From Hyphomicrobium sp. CS1GBMeth3 (GTDB lineage Bacteria > Pseudomonadota > Alphaproteobacteria > Rhizobiales > Hyphomicrobiaceae), in NCBI RefSeq assembly GCF_900117455.1, contig NZ_FPHO01000002.1:1-64000 (forward strand): a stretch of DNA of 64,000 bases, read 5' to 3'. A program made the position numbers and the translations under genes. Numbering within the stretch: position 1 is the stretch's first letter; the number at the start of each line of letters is the position of its first letter. Below, one piece after another: positions 22,857 through 59,146 of this stretch. The notes below the pieces were generated by a model. It was not told the DNA's origin, did no database searches, and saw nothing but the letters and a program-made list of their open reading frames with translations.

Positions 22857-22943
22857 GCGGTCGTGGCGGAATTGGTAGACGCACTACCTTGAGGTGGTAG
22901 CGCTGGAAACGGCGTGGAAGTTCGAGTCTTCTCGACCGCACCA
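22857..22943 (+). tRNA. tRNA-Leu (anticodon GAG), prophage attachment site
   Basis: 87 nt including an encoded CCA. Acceptor stem GCGGTCG / CGACCGC, D arm GGCGGAATTGGTAGACGC, anticodon stem CTACC / GGTAG around loop TTGAGGT, a long variable arm (type II, as expected for Leu) and T arm GGAAG TTCGAGT CTTCT. The tyrosine integrase gene ends 10 bp downstream, so the tRNA 3' end is the likely attL core. Confidence 0.95.
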
Positions 22944-22952
22944 TAACTTAGC

Positions 22953-24158
22953 TCATATCGAGCGGTCTTCGGTTTTGTCCATAGGGGACAATCGGCGCTT
23001 TTTTGGCCTCTTGGTGTCCTGCGCAACTCGTGCAGATGCGTCCCTTTGAGGTAGTGGGCCTATCGCTCCCCCGATGATCTCGACGGCTGGCTTCAGCACG
23101 TCTGATCCGGCGTGCGTGTAAACGATCTCGGTCGTCTTCGTGTCGGCATGCCCGAGAAGCTGCGCCCGGTCTTCGACCTTCACGCCGCGCTCCCGGAGCC
23201 AGGTGCTTACGGAGTGGCGGATGGTGTGCGGGGTGGCATTAGTCTTGAAGACCTTCTCCCCGGTCAGGGGGTGCGTTCGCCACGCCCCGAGCCCGGCCCG
23301 CTGTGCGGCATTCGCGAAGCCGTCCTTGATATCCTTCAGTCGCCTCCCGCCGTGCTCGATAACATGATCGGTCTGGCGAGCTCGATGTGCCCTATTAAGT
23401 TCGCGCATCAGCACGGCACCCATCGGAACGGTGGCGCGGCCCTTTCGCCACCGTTTTGACATCGGGTCGCGATCCTCATCCTCGTCATACTGAATGGTGC
23501 CGCGCTCGAAATCGACGCGATCCCAGGTCAGATCAAGGATGGCCATCTTACGGGCGCCAGTCATGATCGCGAGCAGGATGAAGAGGTAAACGTGAAAATC
23601 GCCGGCCCCCCTGACGAGGGCCTCTGCCTCTTCGAACGTCAGCACGCGCTTGCGGCCCTTGCCCCGGCTCGGCATCCAAATCTTGGGCTTGTCGATCGAT
23701 TGGATGTGCCGGGCCTCGACCGCCCAGGAAAGGCATGCATTGAGCCGCGACAGCTCGGTATTGACCGTCCAGGGCGAGCGGCCGAGCGCGAACCGCGCTT
23801 TTGAGTAATCTCGACAGTCGTCGGCCGTGATCAAGGCCGGCGCTCGGCTTCCAAAATGGGGGTCGAGAGCCTTCCAATTGGCTTCATAGATTTTGTTTGA
23901 CAGCCCGTCCTTCTCGCGATCAGCCAGCCAGAGGCGCCAGAGGTCGCGCACGAGATACGTGGCCTGCTGCTTTTTGACGGCGGATCGCGCCTCGGCGAAG
24001 ACGTCGAGGGCGGCGCGAGCGGCAGCCTCGCCAAGGACTCCTAGCTTCCGACGGCGGCGCTGACCGCTCTCATCGCGATAGTCTGCGACTGCAACCTTTC
24101 CTCTCCATCCGAGAGTGACGTCGCCTCTTCGATAGACGTCACGTGCTCGTTTTCGCAT
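22953..24158 (-). CDS. int: Tyrosine-type site-specific integrase
   Basis: 401 aa. SAM-like core-binding domain about residues 65-155 and catalytic domain from about 170. Catalytic set: Arg 203 (MTGARKMAILDL), His 311 and Arg 314 (TPHTIRHSVSTWL), His 337 (LLGHADTKTTEIVYTH) and Tyr 347. The start has a GAGGA site and lies inside the 3' part of the HTH gene, a 118-nt overlap. The gene points at the tRNA attachment site. Confidence 0.95.
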   Translation of the reverse strand: MRKRARDVYRRGDVTLGWRGKVAVADYRDESGQRRRRKLGVLGEAAARAALDVFAEARSAVKKQQATYLVRDLWRLWLADREKDGLSNKIYEANWKALDPHFGSRAPALITADDCRDYSKARFALGRSPWTVNTELSRLNACLSWAVEARHIQSIDKPKIWMPSRGKGRKRVLTFEEAEALVRGAGDFHVYLFILLAIMTGARKMAILDLTWDRVDFERGTIQYDEDEDRDPMSKRWRKGRATVPMGAVLMRELNRAHRARQTDHVIEHGGRRLKDIKDGFANAAQRAGLGAWRTHPLTGEKVFKTNATPHTIRHSVSTWLRERGVKVEDRAQLLGHADTKTTEIVYTHAGSDVLKPAVEIIGGAIGPLPQRDASARVAQDTKRPKKRRLSPMDKTEDRSI

Positions 24159-53524: not shown

Positions 53525-55166
53525 GGTCTGGCCGCCCGACTATGTGTCGGCGCTCAGTAAGCGGCAGAAGCAACTCATAAGGGTCCGCTCGGACCCGAAG
53601 ATGCTTTACGGTGCCCGCGAGTTCTACCGCACTCATCCGGTGGAGTTCGTCGAGCACTGGATTGACACTTACGATCCCCGCAACGCCGGCAGCGACATGC
53701 CGACGCGACTGCCGTTCATCCCGTTTAAACGGCAACGCGATCTCGTCGAGTTCCTCCTGGCCTGCCTTGATGGCGAGGCCTCTGGTCTCGTCGAGAAGTG
53801 TCGCGACATGGGCGCGACGTGGATTTGCTGCGCGTTCTCTGTCTGGCTGTGGCTCTTCTGGCCGGGCGTGTCGATCGGGTGGGGGTCCCGCAAAGAGCAG
53901 CTTGTCGACAAGATCGGGGTTCCCGACAGCATCTTCCAAAAGATGCGCATGATCGTCATGGGTTTGCCGCGCGAGTTCTGGCCGGCCGGGTTCAGTCCAA
54001 AAGACCACATGACCTATATGAAGTTCGTCAACCCGGAGACGGGCGCGACGATCACCGGCGAGGCTGGCGATAACATCGGACGCGGCGGCAGAACCCGCAT
54101 CTACTTCAAGGACGAGAGCGCCCACTATGAGCGGCCGGAACTGATCGAGGCAGCGCTTGCCGACAACACCCGCGTGCAGATCGACATCTCGTCGGTCAAC
54201 GGCGTGGGCAACGTGTTTCATCGCCGGCGGATGAGCGGCAAGCTCTGGACGCCCGGCAAGCCCGTCGACCGCACCGTCGCGAACGTCTTCGTGATGGACT
54301 GGTCGGACCACCCGGCCAAAAATCAGGCGTGGTTCGATGAGCGCGAGGCGAAGGCTAAGGCCGACGGCCTGATGCACGTCTTCGAGCAGGAGGTGAAGCG
54401 CAACTACTCGGCCGCCGTCGCCGATATCGTCATCCCCGGCAAGTGGGTCGAGGCTGCGATCGATGCCCACAAAGCGATCGGCTTCGATGATAGCGGCGGA
54501 TGGATGGCTTCCCTCGATGTCGCCGACGAGGGCGGAGATCGCAATGCCTTTGCCAAGCGCAAGGGCGTGGTTTTGAAGTACCTCGAGGAGTGGGGCGAGC
54601 AGGATACCGGGCAGACCACGCGGCGGGCCATTGCCGGCTGCGAAGGGCATGGCCGCATCGACCTGCAATACGACTGCATCGGCGTCGGTGCTGGCGTAAA
54701 AGGCGAGGCTAACCGTCTGGCGCGAGACTCTGAGACGGCACGGAAGATCAAGAACGTCCGCTTTGTGCAGTGGAACGCAGGCGCGGCTGTGCAGGATCCC
54801 GAGGGATACGTCCTCGCCCGTCACGAAAAGCCCGACCGGGACACGCCGAAGAATGAGGACTTCTTCGCCAACCTAAAGGCTCAGGGATGGTGGGCGCTTC
54901 GCCGACGCTTTGAGAAGACGTATCGCGCTCGAACTGAGGGCATTCGCTTCGATCCGTCCGAACTGATCAGCTTGCCGTCAGACTTGCCGATGCTGCGGCA
55001 ACTCCAACAAGAGCTGAGCCAGCCGACAGTTAGCAAGGGCTCGCGGCTCAAGCTGGTGATCGACAAGAACCCGCCCGGTACCAGATCGCCAAACCTCGGC
55101 GACGCGGTGATGATGCTCTACTTCCCCTGCAAAGGTCAGGGTCGTCCGCTGGAGGATTGGCTTTGA
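53514..55166 (+). CDS. terL: Terminase large subunit
   Basis: 550 aa. Walker A variant EKCRDMGATW near 94-103, Walker B RIYFKDESAH near 195-204, C-terminal RNase H-like nuclease with ASLDVADEGGDRNAF (first catalytic Asp) and a late acidic GDAVMMLYFP. It cuts and pumps phage DNA into proheads. Standard position before the portal gene. Confidence 0.95.
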   Translation: MGTEVWPPDYVSALSKRQKQLIRVRSDPKMLYGAREFYRTHPVEFVEHWIDTYDPRNAGSDMPTRLPFIPFKRQRDLVEFLLACLDGEASGLVEKCRDMGATWICCAFSVWLWLFWPGVSIGWGSRKEQLVDKIGVPDSIFQKMRMIVMGLPREFWPAGFSPKDHMTYMKFVNPETGATITGEAGDNIGRGGRTRIYFKDESAHYERPELIEAALADNTRVQIDISSVNGVGNVFHRRRMSGKLWTPGKPVDRTVANVFVMDWSDHPAKNQAWFDEREAKAKADGLMHVFEQEVKRNYSAAVADIVIPGKWVEAAIDAHKAIGFDDSGGWMASLDVADEGGDRNAFAKRKGVVLKYLEEWGEQDTGQTTRRAIAGCEGHGRIDLQYDCIGVGAGVKGEANRLARDSETARKIKNVRFVQWNAGAAVQDPEGYVLARHEKPDRDTPKNEDFFANLKAQGWWALRRRFEKTYRARTEGIRFDPSELISLPSDLPMLRQLQQELSQPTVSKGSRLKLVIDKNPPGTRSPNLGDAVMMLYFPCKGQGRPLEDWL

Positions 55167-56617
55167 AGATCATCGACGGCTTGATCAACATGGTTGCGAA
55201 CCTCGCGGCCGGCAACTCCAAGCGCGTCTTCGATCAGTTCGTCGCCTCAGAGGTGCCGCCTCAGCAACTCAACGCCATGTATCGCGGCGACTGGCTGTCC
55301 CGAAAGGTCGTCGACCTGCCGGTGAAAGACATTATGCGGCCGTGGCGCGGGTGGCAGGCCGAGGCCGATCAGATCTCGGCTATCGAAGAGACCGAGAAGC
55401 GGCACAACATCCGCGTCAAGATAGCGACCGCGCTCATCTATGATCGCCTTTACGGTGGCGCCGCCATTGTCATCGGTGGCGGGCGACTAGTGTCACCAAT
55501 GACGGAATTGAAGCCCGAGCATGTCACCCGTGGCGGGCTTCGGCACATCACCCCGCTTCGCCGCATTGATATTCAGCCGGCCGAGGCCGAGACCGATCCC
55601 CTCTCTGAGAACTTTGGGCTGCCGAAGTATTACACCCTCAAGAGCGACCGCGGATCCGTCGACATTCACCCCTCGCGCGTTATCCGCATCGTCGGCACAC
55701 CACGGCACGACATCGAGACCAATCCGGAGTGCTGGGGCGACAGCATACTGCAAGTCATCAGCGATGCCCTTAAGAACGCCGGCCTTGCGATGACAGGCGT
55801 TGCCGAGTTGATCCACGAGGCTAAGGTCGACGTCGTGAAGATGCACGACATGATGGAGATGTTGGCTACCAACGAGGGCACGGCTCAGCTCGTCAAGCGC
55901 TTCCAGAATGCCAGCCTTCTGAAGAGCATCAACAACACTTTGCTGCTCGACAAGAACGACGACTGGGACCGGAAGCAGACGAGCTTCGCTGGCCTGCCGG
56001 ATCTGATCCAGGCCTATCTGCAGATCGTCGCCGGCGCGTCCGACATTCCCGTCACGCGCTTGCTCGGCACTTCTCCGAAGGGTCTCAACTCGACGGGCGA
56101 GCACGACACTCGCAATTATTACGACTTCCTCGATGGCCTGCGCGTCGACGTTCTGCAGCCGATCCTTGACCGTCTCGACCCCTTCCTCTGGTGTGATGCC
56201 ATCGGCTCTGTGCCCCCCGATGCCTTCTTCGAGTTCAATCCGCTCTGGCAGATGACCGAGAAGGAAAAGGCCGACATCTCCAAGCTGAAGTCGGAGACGA
56301 CCAAGAACTACGCCAGTCTTGGCCTCATGCCCGAAGAGCCCTTCGCGCGTGCACTCATCAACCAGTTGATCGAGGACGGCACCTATCCCGGTCTTGAGGC
56401 CGAAATAGGCGACCTTCTCGAATCCGACGAGCCAATCGTCCCGGAGGACGTGCCCGATGATGACGTTCGACCTTCCGGCAATGGTCCGCGCAAGGCTGAA
56501 GCGTCGGGTGGTTCTGCGCGAGATCGGGCCATTGATTGGGGTCGAGCTCGATCTGAGGCGTTCGCTGGGCTTGATGATCTCTTCGATCCTGAAGGAAGCC
56601 CGCGGACCACTCACTGA
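55163..56617 (+). CDS. Phage portal protein (DUF1073-like)
   Basis: 484 aa. FDQFVASEVPPQQLNAMYRGDWLSRKVVDLPVKDIMRPWRGW and DIPVTRLLGTSPKGLNSTGEHDTRNYYDFLDGLR are core motifs of this portal class. Start taken as TTG 55163 because GGAGG lies 7 bases ahead and TTTGA couples it to terL; TTG 55157 and ATG 55190 are alternatives. The last 53 codons overlap the MuF gene by 161 nt. Confidence 0.92.
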   Translation: MKIIDGLINMVANLAAGNSKRVFDQFVASEVPPQQLNAMYRGDWLSRKVVDLPVKDIMRPWRGWQAEADQISAIEETEKRHNIRVKIATALIYDRLYGGAAIVIGGGRLVSPMTELKPEHVTRGGLRHITPLRRIDIQPAEAETDPLSENFGLPKYYTLKSDRGSVDIHPSRVIRIVGTPRHDIETNPECWGDSILQVISDALKNAGLAMTGVAELIHEAKVDVVKMHDMMEMLATNEGTAQLVKRFQNASLLKSINNTLLLDKNDDWDRKQTSFAGLPDLIQAYLQIVAGASDIPVTRLLGTSPKGLNSTGEHDTRNYYDFLDGLRVDVLQPILDRLDPFLWCDAIGSVPPDAFFEFNPLWQMTEKEKADISKLKSETTKNYASLGLMPEEPFARALINQLIEDGTYPGLEAEIGDLLESDEPIVPEDVPDDDVRPSGNGPRKAEASGGSARDRAIDWGRARSEAFAGLDDLFDPEGSPRTTH

Positions 56618-57284
56618 GGTTATCCGCCAAGAGCGGGAGGCCTACGCCGCGGCGAACGCTGGCGTGCCGATCCAAATCGGCGACGACATCGGCGGGCGCA
56701 TCCGGGCGATCCTCGAGGGGTTGCGTGAGACCGCTGAGCGTGCCGCTGCGGCGGCCGAGGATGCCGTTCGCCGCACGATGCGCCGCGAGAGTGTTCGGCA
56801 CATGCGCCGGTGGGTCGGATCGATCCGCACGTCGACCAGTATCGACGTCGGGGCGTTGGTCTCTGAAGCCGATATGGTCGAATTGCTCTCGGTTCGTAGC
56901 GAAGAGTTCGCCCGGCTGATCCGCAACGTGTCCGAGGATGTGCGAACCCGCATCGCGCAGGAAACGATCCGGGCCATCACTGAAGGCCGGACAAACGAGA
57001 ACATCGCTCGATCGCTCACCCAGATCGAGGGCATCGGGCGGGGCAGGGCAAAGCTCATCGCGCGCGACCAGGCGTCAAAGCTCAACGCAGCGATGAACGA
57101 GTTCCGTCAGCGGCAGGCTGGCATCACGAAATACAAGTGGCGTTCGATGATGGACCCTCCCCGGGCTCGCGAGAACCATATGGACCGCAACGACAAGATC
57201 TTTGAGTGGTCGAAGCCGCCTTCTGACGGGCATCCGGGTCACGCGATCAATTGCCGGTGCCGTGCTTTGGCAGTGCTCGAATGA
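56457..57284 (+). CDS. Phage head morphogenesis protein (Mu gpF-like)
   Basis: 275 aa. Helical N-terminus and the MuF C-terminal domain GRAKLIARDQASKLNAAMNEFRQRQAGITKYKWRSMMDPPRARENHMDRND with the end GHAINCRCRA. The ATG has GGAGGA at good spacing, inside the portal gene. Connects portal and capsid assembly. Confidence 0.92.
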   Translation: MMTFDLPAMVRARLKRRVVLREIGPLIGVELDLRRSLGLMISSILKEARGPLTEVIRQEREAYAAANAGVPIQIGDDIGGRIRAILEGLRETAERAAAAAEDAVRRTMRRESVRHMRRWVGSIRTSTSIDVGALVSEADMVELLSVRSEEFARLIRNVSEDVRTRIAQETIRAITEGRTNENIARSLTQIEGIGRGRAKLIARDQASKLNAAMNEFRQRQAGITKYKWRSMMDPPRARENHMDRNDKIFEWSKPPSDGHPGHAINCRCRALAVLE

Positions 57285-57484
57285 TACGCGCTGCCGAGGT
57301 CGAAAGGCTTGCCCTTGAGCTCTGGCGCGAGCGCGAGATGCAATTCCCCGCCTTCTGCCGACGCATGACGCCCGACGCCCTCGACCGCTCGACGGGAGCT
57401 TGGGAAGGCATGATGAACCGGGCGGCAAAGCTCATCGCGGCGAACAGCGCTGCACCATCAACAGTGACGCCGCTTCACCGCTGA
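57281..57484 (+). CDS. Small phage protein
   Basis: 67 aa helical: MIRAAEVERLALELWREREMQFPAFCRRMTPDALDRSTGAWEG. ATGA overlap with the MuF gene. Unknown. Confidence 0.6.
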   Translation: MIRAAEVERLALELWREREMQFPAFCRRMTPDALDRSTGAWEGMMNRAAKLIAANSAAPSTVTPLHR

Positions 57485-57493
57485 GGTCCTGAC

Positions 57494-59146
57494 ATGCTCG
57501 ACCGCACGCAGACCGTCTCGAAAGGGCGGCGCATCGTCATGCTTCGGGCAACGCCCGATACGCAGCATGCGCTCCGCGAGTGGGCGATCGCTCAGGGCTT
57601 CGATCTGGCCTGGAGCCACAGCGGATGGCCGCAGACGAATTGGGACTTTGATTTCCACGTAACCCTGCTCGCCACCGAGAATGCAGTCTCTATTCCGGAG
57701 GGCGCGCGATGGATCGAGCCGGTGACTGTCGAGGCCTCGGGCTTCGATGTGTTCGGTGTCGATGACCGCGTGCCGGTATTGCGTCTCGCGGATCACCAGA
57801 CGCTCACCGCCATGCGGGAGTTCTTCATCACCTCTTACGGCGCGAAGCCGACCTTCGCGGATTTCAAGCCGCACGTCTCGCTTTCCTACAAATGGCCCGG
57901 CGAGCCTGCCGTGGACAGCCTTGCGCCACCTCCATTCCCGCTCGTCTTCGACTTCCTCGTCGTCGGCCTCTTCGCCCCGAAGGCAAAAGTAAAGGATGGC
58001 GCCATGCCCGATTTCAGAACCGTCGTGATGCTCGACAAGGCCGAGATCTCGGGCACGCGCATCACGCGCGATGGTTACATGGTGGCCGATGTCCGCGCCG
58101 CCCGCTCGGGAATTCAGCAGTACGCAGGTCACGAGGTCGGGCGTCCCGATCTTGAAACCGTCAACGTCTATCGGCCGGAAGAAGAGGTGTTCAACAAGGA
58201 CAGCCTCGCCAGCTACGCGTTCAAACCGGTCACGATCAATCACCCGACGTCGGCCGTCACGGCGGACAACTGGAAGCAACTCAGCGTCGGCAACGTCGGC
58301 GGCGAGGTGGCCCGCGATGGTGGCTTCGTTCGGGTGCCGCTCGTGCTCATGGACGCTCAGGCCATCGAGGCCGTTAAAAGCGGCGTGCGTGAGATCTCGA
58401 TGGGCTACGATGTTCGCCTCGAGTTTGCCGACGGCGTAACGCCTAACGGCCAGAAGTACCAAGCCATTCAGCGAGACATTCGGATCAACCATGCGGCGCT
58501 CGTCGAGCGCGGGCGCGCTGGTCCGGCATGTCGCATCGGGGACAAGGGCACTCCCGATGCGAAGAGTGAGCGTGAGCCCGCCACCATTGGAGACCAGACC
58601 ATGACCACTCGCAACATTACGGTGGACGGGATCACGATCGCCGTCACCGATCAGGGTGCCCAGGCCATCGAGAAGCTGCAGAAGCAGCTCGGTGACAGCA
58701 CGAAGCTTCTCGCCGACGCCAACGCCGCGCTCGACACGCTGAAGGCCGACAAGGCAAAGCTGGTCGAGGATCACGCCAAGGCGCTCAAGGACGTCGAGGC
58801 CAAGATCCCGACCGCAGATCAGATGGAGGCCATGCTCGACAAGCGCTCGGCGCTCATCGACCAGGCGAAGACCCTCGCTCCGAGCCTTGCCGACAGCTTC
58901 AAGGGCAAGTCGGCTGCCGAAGTCCGCAAGGCAGTCGTCACGTCCAAGCTCGGCGACGACGCCGTGAAGGGCAAGGACGACGCGTTCATCTCGGCACAGT
59001 TCGATACCCTCGTTCTGATCGGTGGCGCCACCGATGGCGCTGATCAGATCCGCGATGCGCTCAAGGGCGGCATCGTTGCCACCAATGACGCAGATCGTCT
59101 GCGCGACGAGACGCTGAAGAAGCAGCGCGAGGCCTGGGCGTCGTAA
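57494..59146 (+). CDS. Acb1-like 2H phosphodiesterase fused to DUF2213 prohead protease and scaffold
   Basis: 550 aa with three parts. Residues 1-165 form a 2H phosphoesterase: HVT at 55-57 (DFDFHVTLLATE) and HVS at 127-129 (FKPHVSLSYKW), as in the anti-CBASS Acb1 family that destroys cyclic nucleotide signals. Residues about 171-360 are the DUF2213 prohead protease (GTRITRDGYMVADVRAARSGIQQYAGHEVG; VKSGVREISMGY). Residues 370-550 are a coiled-coil scaffold. Internal starts exist for the second (58004) and third (58601) parts. Confidence 0.85.
   Translation: MLDRTQTVSKGRRIVMLRATPDTQHALREWAIAQGFDLAWSHSGWPQTNWDFDFHVTLLATENAVSIPEGARWIEPVTVEASGFDVFGVDDRVPVLRLADHQTLTAMREFFITSYGAKPTFADFKPHVSLSYKWPGEPAVDSLAPPPFPLVFDFLVVGLFAPKAKVKDGAMPDFRTVVMLDKAEISGTRITRDGYMVADVRAARSGIQQYAGHEVGRPDLETVNVYRPEEEVFNKDSLASYAFKPVTINHPTSAVTADNWKQLSVGNVGGEVARDGGFVRVPLVLMDAQAIEAVKSGVREISMGYDVRLEFADGVTPNGQKYQAIQRDIRINHAALVERGRAGPACRIGDKGTPDAKSEREPATIGDQTMTTRNITVDGITIAVTDQGAQAIEKLQKQLGDSTKLLADANAALDTLKADKAKLVEDHAKALKDVEAKIPTADQMEAMLDKRSALIDQAKTLAPSLADSFKGKSAAEVRKAVVTSKLGDDAVKGKDDAFISAQFDTLVLIGGATDGADQIRDALKGGIVATNDADRLRDETLKKQREAWAS
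58004..59146 (+). CDS. Nested start: prohead protease plus scaffold without the 2H domain
   Basis: In-frame ATG (codon 171) with AAAGGA about 8 bases ahead; starts MPDFRTVVMLDKAEISGTRI, where DUF2213 proteins normally begin. 380 aa. It would let the phage make protease separately from the 2H fusion. Confidence 0.55.
   Translation: MPDFRTVVMLDKAEISGTRITRDGYMVADVRAARSGIQQYAGHEVGRPDLETVNVYRPEEEVFNKDSLASYAFKPVTINHPTSAVTADNWKQLSVGNVGGEVARDGGFVRVPLVLMDAQAIEAVKSGVREISMGYDVRLEFADGVTPNGQKYQAIQRDIRINHAALVERGRAGPACRIGDKGTPDAKSEREPATIGDQTMTTRNITVDGITIAVTDQGAQAIEKLQKQLGDSTKLLADANAALDTLKADKAKLVEDHAKALKDVEAKIPTADQMEAMLDKRSALIDQAKTLAPSLADSFKGKSAAEVRKAVVTSKLGDDAVKGKDDAFISAQFDTLVLIGGATDGADQIRDALKGGIVATNDADRLRDETLKKQREAWAS
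58601..59146 (+). CDS. Nested start: scaffold protein
   Basis: In-frame ATG (codon 370) with GGAGA 8 bases ahead, MTTRNITVDGITIAVTDQGA, then a coiled coil AIEKLQKQLGDSTKLLADANAALDTLKADKAKLVEDHAKAL. 181 aa. Same trick as lambda C/Nu3, where the scaffold is the 3' part of the protease gene. Confidence 0.65.
   Translation: MTTRNITVDGITIAVTDQGAQAIEKLQKQLGDSTKLLADANAALDTLKADKAKLVEDHAKALKDVEAKIPTADQMEAMLDKRSALIDQAKTLAPSLADSFKGKSAAEVRKAVVTSKLGDDAVKGKDDAFISAQFDTLVLIGGATDGADQIRDALKGGIVATNDADRLRDETLKKQREAWAS

Follow-up and report, generated by a model that had tools for sequence, protein, structure and literature searches.

A 2H phosphodiesterase of Acb1-like fold joined to the capsid protease of a Hyphomicrobium prophage

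Here, we analyzed a 64,000-nucleotide stretch of the genome of Hyphomicrobium sp. CS1GBMeth3 (contig NZ_FPHO01000002.1, positions 1 to 64,000; hereafter, the window), in which a single gene encodes a 2H phosphodiesterase with an Acb1-like fold joined to the N-terminus of a T4 gp21-type capsid protease that has its own scaffold. The fused layout, namely, a 2H domain, a DUF2213 protease and a scaffold in one frame, had been claimed in a previous reading of the sequence alone (the sequence-only reading) and is borne out by an open reading frame (ORF) of 550 amino acids together with Pfam and PHROG matches. The gene and its parts are as follows:

57494..59146, + strand: 550-amino-acid fusion of an Acb1-like 2H domain, a DUF2213 capsid protease and a helical scaffold, in a single open frame
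57483..57487, + strand: GAGGT, Shine-Dalgarno-like, upstream of the main start codon, an ATG
57494..58006, + strand: N-terminal 2H phosphoesterase domain, residues 1-171
57656..57664, + strand: first catalytic motif, HVT, residues 55-57 (H55 in 49/49 and T57 in 48/49 of the aligned rows reaching the position)
57872..57880, + strand: second catalytic motif, HVS, residues 127-129 (H127 in 50/50 rows; S129 in 48/50, T in 2)
58055..58546, + strand: capsid maturation protease domain (DUF2213), residues 188-351 approximately

The identity of the protease is clear from the DUF2213 match (2.7e-55, residues 189-351) and from PHROGs, where the back part of the fusion is a head maturation protease. A gp21-like capsid protease fold was found for the DUF2213 part in a second look at the structure matches, rather than from the scores of Foldseek itself, and residues H250, E300 and S302 are conserved in the sequence rows, where H250 and S302 may correspond to the catalytic His and Ser of gp21. 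PADLOC yielded no match for either half of the protein. Neither the T4 prohead protease gp21 (5jbl) nor the herpesvirus assemblin is known to have an enzyme domain at its N-terminus.

In structural comparison, the fold of the 2H domain is nearest to Acb1, so that the match to 2H/Acb1 enzymes on which the sequence-only reading had staked its claim was indeed found. The anti-CBASS protein Acb1 (T4 gp57B, FBB1; PF23474; PDB 7t26, 7t27), likewise of phage origin, shares the 2H fold over 136 aligned residues, nearly the whole domain, with the two catalytic histidines at equivalent places. Both motifs predicted from the sequence are present, with no exception at either histidine in the rows covering it, and the counterpart of T4 Acb1 F107 is aromatic (F or Y at position 121 in 49 of 50 rows; sequence alignment). 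Whereas T4 Acb1 has a strict HxT/HxT tetrad, as stated in PMC9117128, the fusion domain has HxT/HxS and is therefore referred to here as Acb1-like rather than Acb1. The HxS motif is also found in portal-borne domains that pass PF23474 (L071, L076, L082); our first protein search lists this model for 10 of its 33 proteins. Unlike T4 Acb1, the domain is carried on a head protease and stays under the PF23474 cut-off. Thus, the proposed Acb1-like identity held for the fold and the intact catalytic pair, but not for the strict tetrad or the Pfam threshold. Related 2H proteins of the rhizobial T4-like phages phiM7, phiN3 and phiM19, Rhizobium phage RHph_I1_18 and Ochrobactrum phage OC (7 records, with which the domain shares 31 to 35 percent identity) differ from the fusion in standing alone; in the three of these records that were inspected, no head gene is annotated next to them.

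The N-terminal 2H-protease fusion is a recurrent type. From two protein searches, we took all 33 of 33 matches and the best 120 of 411, respectively, which gave 138 proteins with the protease domain, after P0033, P0034 and P0035, which have no protease, were set apart. The 2H domain stands in front of the protease in 43 of these 138 (counting the window protein and the shortened P0032), which makes the fusion more than a chance event, and between the protease and the scaffold in 4 (P0028-P0031); 91 have no 2H domain. These shares are not prevalences, because the first search selected for the 2H domain, and the "unfused" labels rest on database gene calls, some of which may hide wrong starts. 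A quick tree was built from 106 rows, with near-copies thinned and with named phages and viral contigs included. To account for the N-terminal fusion label on it, 9 changes are required, at least 4 of which lie on well-supported branches; the internal fusions cluster in a single group. Several long branches, including that of P0028, meet in this tree, and the NUDIX row surely stands in the wrong place. Two free versions lie near the fusion family (P0034, P0035), and P0033 (468 amino acids) carries the same 2H subfamily ahead of a different protein part without DUF2213. Among the genomes searched, the fusion is rare: those of the order (397), the class (385) and the family (103) yielded the window copy and one free, distant protein in genome G172, around which no portal or DUF2213 gene was seen. 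Scans of genome contigs gave no fusions, with 0 relatives in 35 stretches and 0 in 29.

The fusion gene contains two internal ATGs with putative ribosome sites, in agreement with the sequence-only reading:

57992..57996, + strand: AAGGA, Shine-Dalgarno-like, at spacing 7 ahead of the nested ATG at 58004
58004..59146, + strand: predicted nested product of 380 amino acids, protease and scaffold without the 2H domain
58589..58592, + strand: GGAG, Shine-Dalgarno-like, at spacing 8 ahead of the nested scaffold ATG at 58601
58601..59146, + strand: predicted nested scaffold product of 181 amino acids, starting at residue 370

The scaffold start at 58601 is likely real, given the excess of Shine-Dalgarno matches in 27 protease ORFs from fetched loci and the nearly universal methionine after the protease domain (136 of 138 proteins), which strengthen the earlier prediction. 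An ATG after the protease is preceded by a putative site of at least 4 bases in 22 of the 27 ORFs, with 6.5 expected, and of at least 5 bases in 16, with 1.4 expected, a strong signal in sequence terms, even if several of the ORFs are near relatives and hence not independent. The site is absent in 5 of the 27 (L002-L005, L007), and the window's own match is 4 bases long. The predicted arrangement resembles lambda C/Nu3, where an in-frame internal start with a ribosome site precedes the nested scaffold. A protease-scaffold product may also be made from 58004: there is a methionine near the 2H/protease junction in 36 of the 43 N-fused proteins (background 0.32), and AAGGA at spacing 7 recurs in the metagenomic locus L058, with only AAGG at spacing 4 in L018.

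A 33-base repeat of the tRNA-Leu end, which returns at C2:77408-77440, places the fusion gene inside a prophage of about 54.5 kb. Other features of this prophage are:

22913..22945, + strand: attachment-site copy, 3' end of tRNA-Leu (33-base repeat)
55157..56617, + strand: portal, Phage_portal_3 only, without a C-terminal Acb1 domain (Pfam)
56457..57284, + strand: MuF-like minor head protein

The integration site is tRNA-Leu(gag) with an adjoining integrase (window 22857-24158), the repeat being 54.5 kb away, and a viral contig of 53.5 kb with an identical protein begins, by coordinate arithmetic, at 22953. The MuF-like gene is followed by the fusion and then by genes for an E217/Pam3-family cement protein and a major capsid protein. 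The portal and MuF-like frames share 161 bases (window 56457-56617); the overlap in L017 is similar, with a like MuF start.

That the window portal lacks the Acb1 domain found at the portal end in other phages, as the sequence-only reading stated, was confirmed on both counts: Phage_portal_3 was its only Pfam match, and PF23474 is present in portals of related named phages. Among 13 fetched head blocks of such phages, 8 have the 2H domain on the portal (Pam3, Ssp-JY39, Erebus, RHph_TM3_3_3, phiPSA1, RHph_I72, RHEph06, HMSP1-Susan), where the PF23474 scan covered these 8 portals and two of the 5 short ones, and a local profile covered all 13. The Acb1-bearing portals (Pam3, RHEph06, phiPSA1 and others; PF06381 with PF23474) come from a related head-gene block and carry an enzyme of the same superfamily (profile-to-profile probability 99.1), yet of a distant subfamily and on another carrier gene, at the C-terminal end rather than at the N-terminal end of the protease. 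In a hand count of 26 head blocks with both genes, the domain is on the portal in 10, on the protease in 3 (the window, L017, L018), on both in 0 and on neither in 13. Mutual exclusion of the two copies was considered and rejected, the absence of blocks with both having a chance probability of 0.215, on numbers too small to count as evidence. This count leaves out blocks with the portal or protease missing or cut (L002, L005, L008, L062, L063, L068) as well as repeat copies and short own-locus stretches (L001, L009, L013, L014, L016, L057, L058, L067, L069, L070, L084, L085, L107); it retains some close relatives, for example, L003/L004 and L072/L073, and the protease reaches the contig end unfinished in L018 and L064.

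Other head genes have comparable additions. A Mu-type portal (Portal_Mu, L056:4462-6585), from another portal family, has PF23474 at 484-632; a DUF2213 protease with 641 amino acids between stops (L065:11149-13071) carries at the equivalent place a different nucleotide-cleaving enzyme, an N-terminal NUDIX (57-167); and in L060:15707-17380, Peptidase_S78 and DUF2213 follow each other in one frame, in a block whose portal has an Acb1-like domain. PMC5512222 and PMC9503650 describe 2H domains on MuF and portal proteins, and Nudix domains on MuF, portal and capsid peptidase, the idea in both cases being that nucleotide signals are countered; the head carriers named for 2H in the relevant part of PMC9503650 are MuF and portal. 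The Nudix on a capsid-processing serine peptidase described there is likewise a nucleotide-cleaving enzyme on a head peptidase, albeit of a different fold. Hence 2H domains on head proteins are already known, and the protease as a carrier is new as far as full-text searches of one open-access library reach.

We propose, with a probability of about one half, that the 2H enzyme on the head protease cleaves a host immune nucleotide and is an antidote made together with a trigger-like protease and routed to the prohead. The role of the domain is most likely anti-signaling; the enzyme would cleave a cyclic nucleotide signal of the host, the likeliest being one of the CBASS type (cyclic oligonucleotide-based antiphage signaling system). 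Because the fusion is a head protein, presumably made late, the antidote would match the head protease in place, time and amount, and proteins of that kind have been reported to trigger CBASS. Specifically, PMC12409349, citing Richmond-Buccola 2024, states that growth arrest is induced through an interaction between a CBASS sensor and the Bas13 phage prohead protease, and the references of PMC13424991 include a 2026 preprint whose title has phage proteases activating CBASS. It is possible that the antidote is joined to its own trigger. Through its scaffold part, the fusion would be recruited to the prohead, and the enzyme may be released there by the protease; the internal starts would supply protease and scaffold free of the enzyme, leaving most of the scaffold unburdened.

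Several observations weigh against this proposal. CBASS triggering has been reported for this kind of protease, not for DUF2213 proteases in particular. No SMODS cyclase was found in the host genome; such cyclases score above the cut-off in 11 of 102 genomes of its family. In L058 (L058:11200-11620), a close metagenomic relative that encodes the shortened P0032, a stop lies in frame within the 2H domain, the protease and scaffold frame being open, so that, unless the stop is a sequencing error, this phage would need an internal start. One homologue, P0040, has A in place of the first-motif threonine T57. The score of the fusion against Acb1 PF23474 is 23.9, below the gathering score of 27. By sequence alignment, F107 is the only one of the T4 base-contact residues Y12, W74, F107, E141 and W147 with a conserved counterpart: none was found for Y12, E141 and the lid residue W147, and at the W74 position the fusion has F, with L in 39 of 50 rows. 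Finally, the 2'-5' RNA ligase model 2_5_RNA_ligase2 (PF13563) passes its cut-off on the fusion N-terminus (30 bits versus 27).

The last points lend themselves to an unlikely alternative, which takes the domain for a 2H enzyme of RNA end processing, a 2',3'-cyclic phosphodiesterase or LigT-like, that helps to repair RNA cut by host toxins and rides on the protease incidentally. PF13563 is the only 2H Pfam model above the cut-off, PHROG 755 bears the name RNA ligase, and the base pocket of T4 Acb1 is not conserved; LigT was not the best structural match of the domain. Equally improbable, in our estimate, is that the scaffold packs the domain into the head as cargo, to be ejected with the DNA and to act not in the cell that made it but at the outset of the following infection; the activity of the enzyme may be the same as we propose. 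Head proteases and scaffolds are usually gone before DNA packaging, which argues against cargo; in its favor, the Pam3 portal (PDB 8hds; a weak match, E 0.17) ends with PF23474, and a portal-borne domain would belong to the virion. Packaging and injection of 2H domains on MuF and portal proteins have been proposed in PMC5512222 and PMC9503650. A dead or purely structural appendage, as the stop in L058 and the 91 collected proteins without the domain could suggest, is highly improbable, as both catalytic histidines are kept in every row covering them. That the fusion arose from faulty assembly or gene calling is practically dismissed by the 43 N-terminal and 4 internal fusions and by DNA that is unbroken in the window and, up to the contig end, in the separate contig L018.

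Returning to the antidote proposal, a wider version of it can be entertained only tentatively: phages would more than once have fused a cyclic-nucleotide-cleaving enzyme to the head protease because that kind of protease itself alarms CBASS, the trigger would take its antidote along into the procapsid, self-cleavage there would free the enzyme, and the head block would serve as a swap slot, at the portal end, the protease front and the protease middle, in which anti-signal enzymes such as Acb1-like 2H and Nudix are exchanged. The placement and timing of counter-defense enzymes in phages are poorly known, T4 Acb1 being a free protein. If an antidote is indeed joined to a protein resembling the trigger of CBASS, the way in which CBASS sensing is tied to capsid assembly would become directly testable, and the presence of Acb1-like domains on head proteins would be easier to explain.
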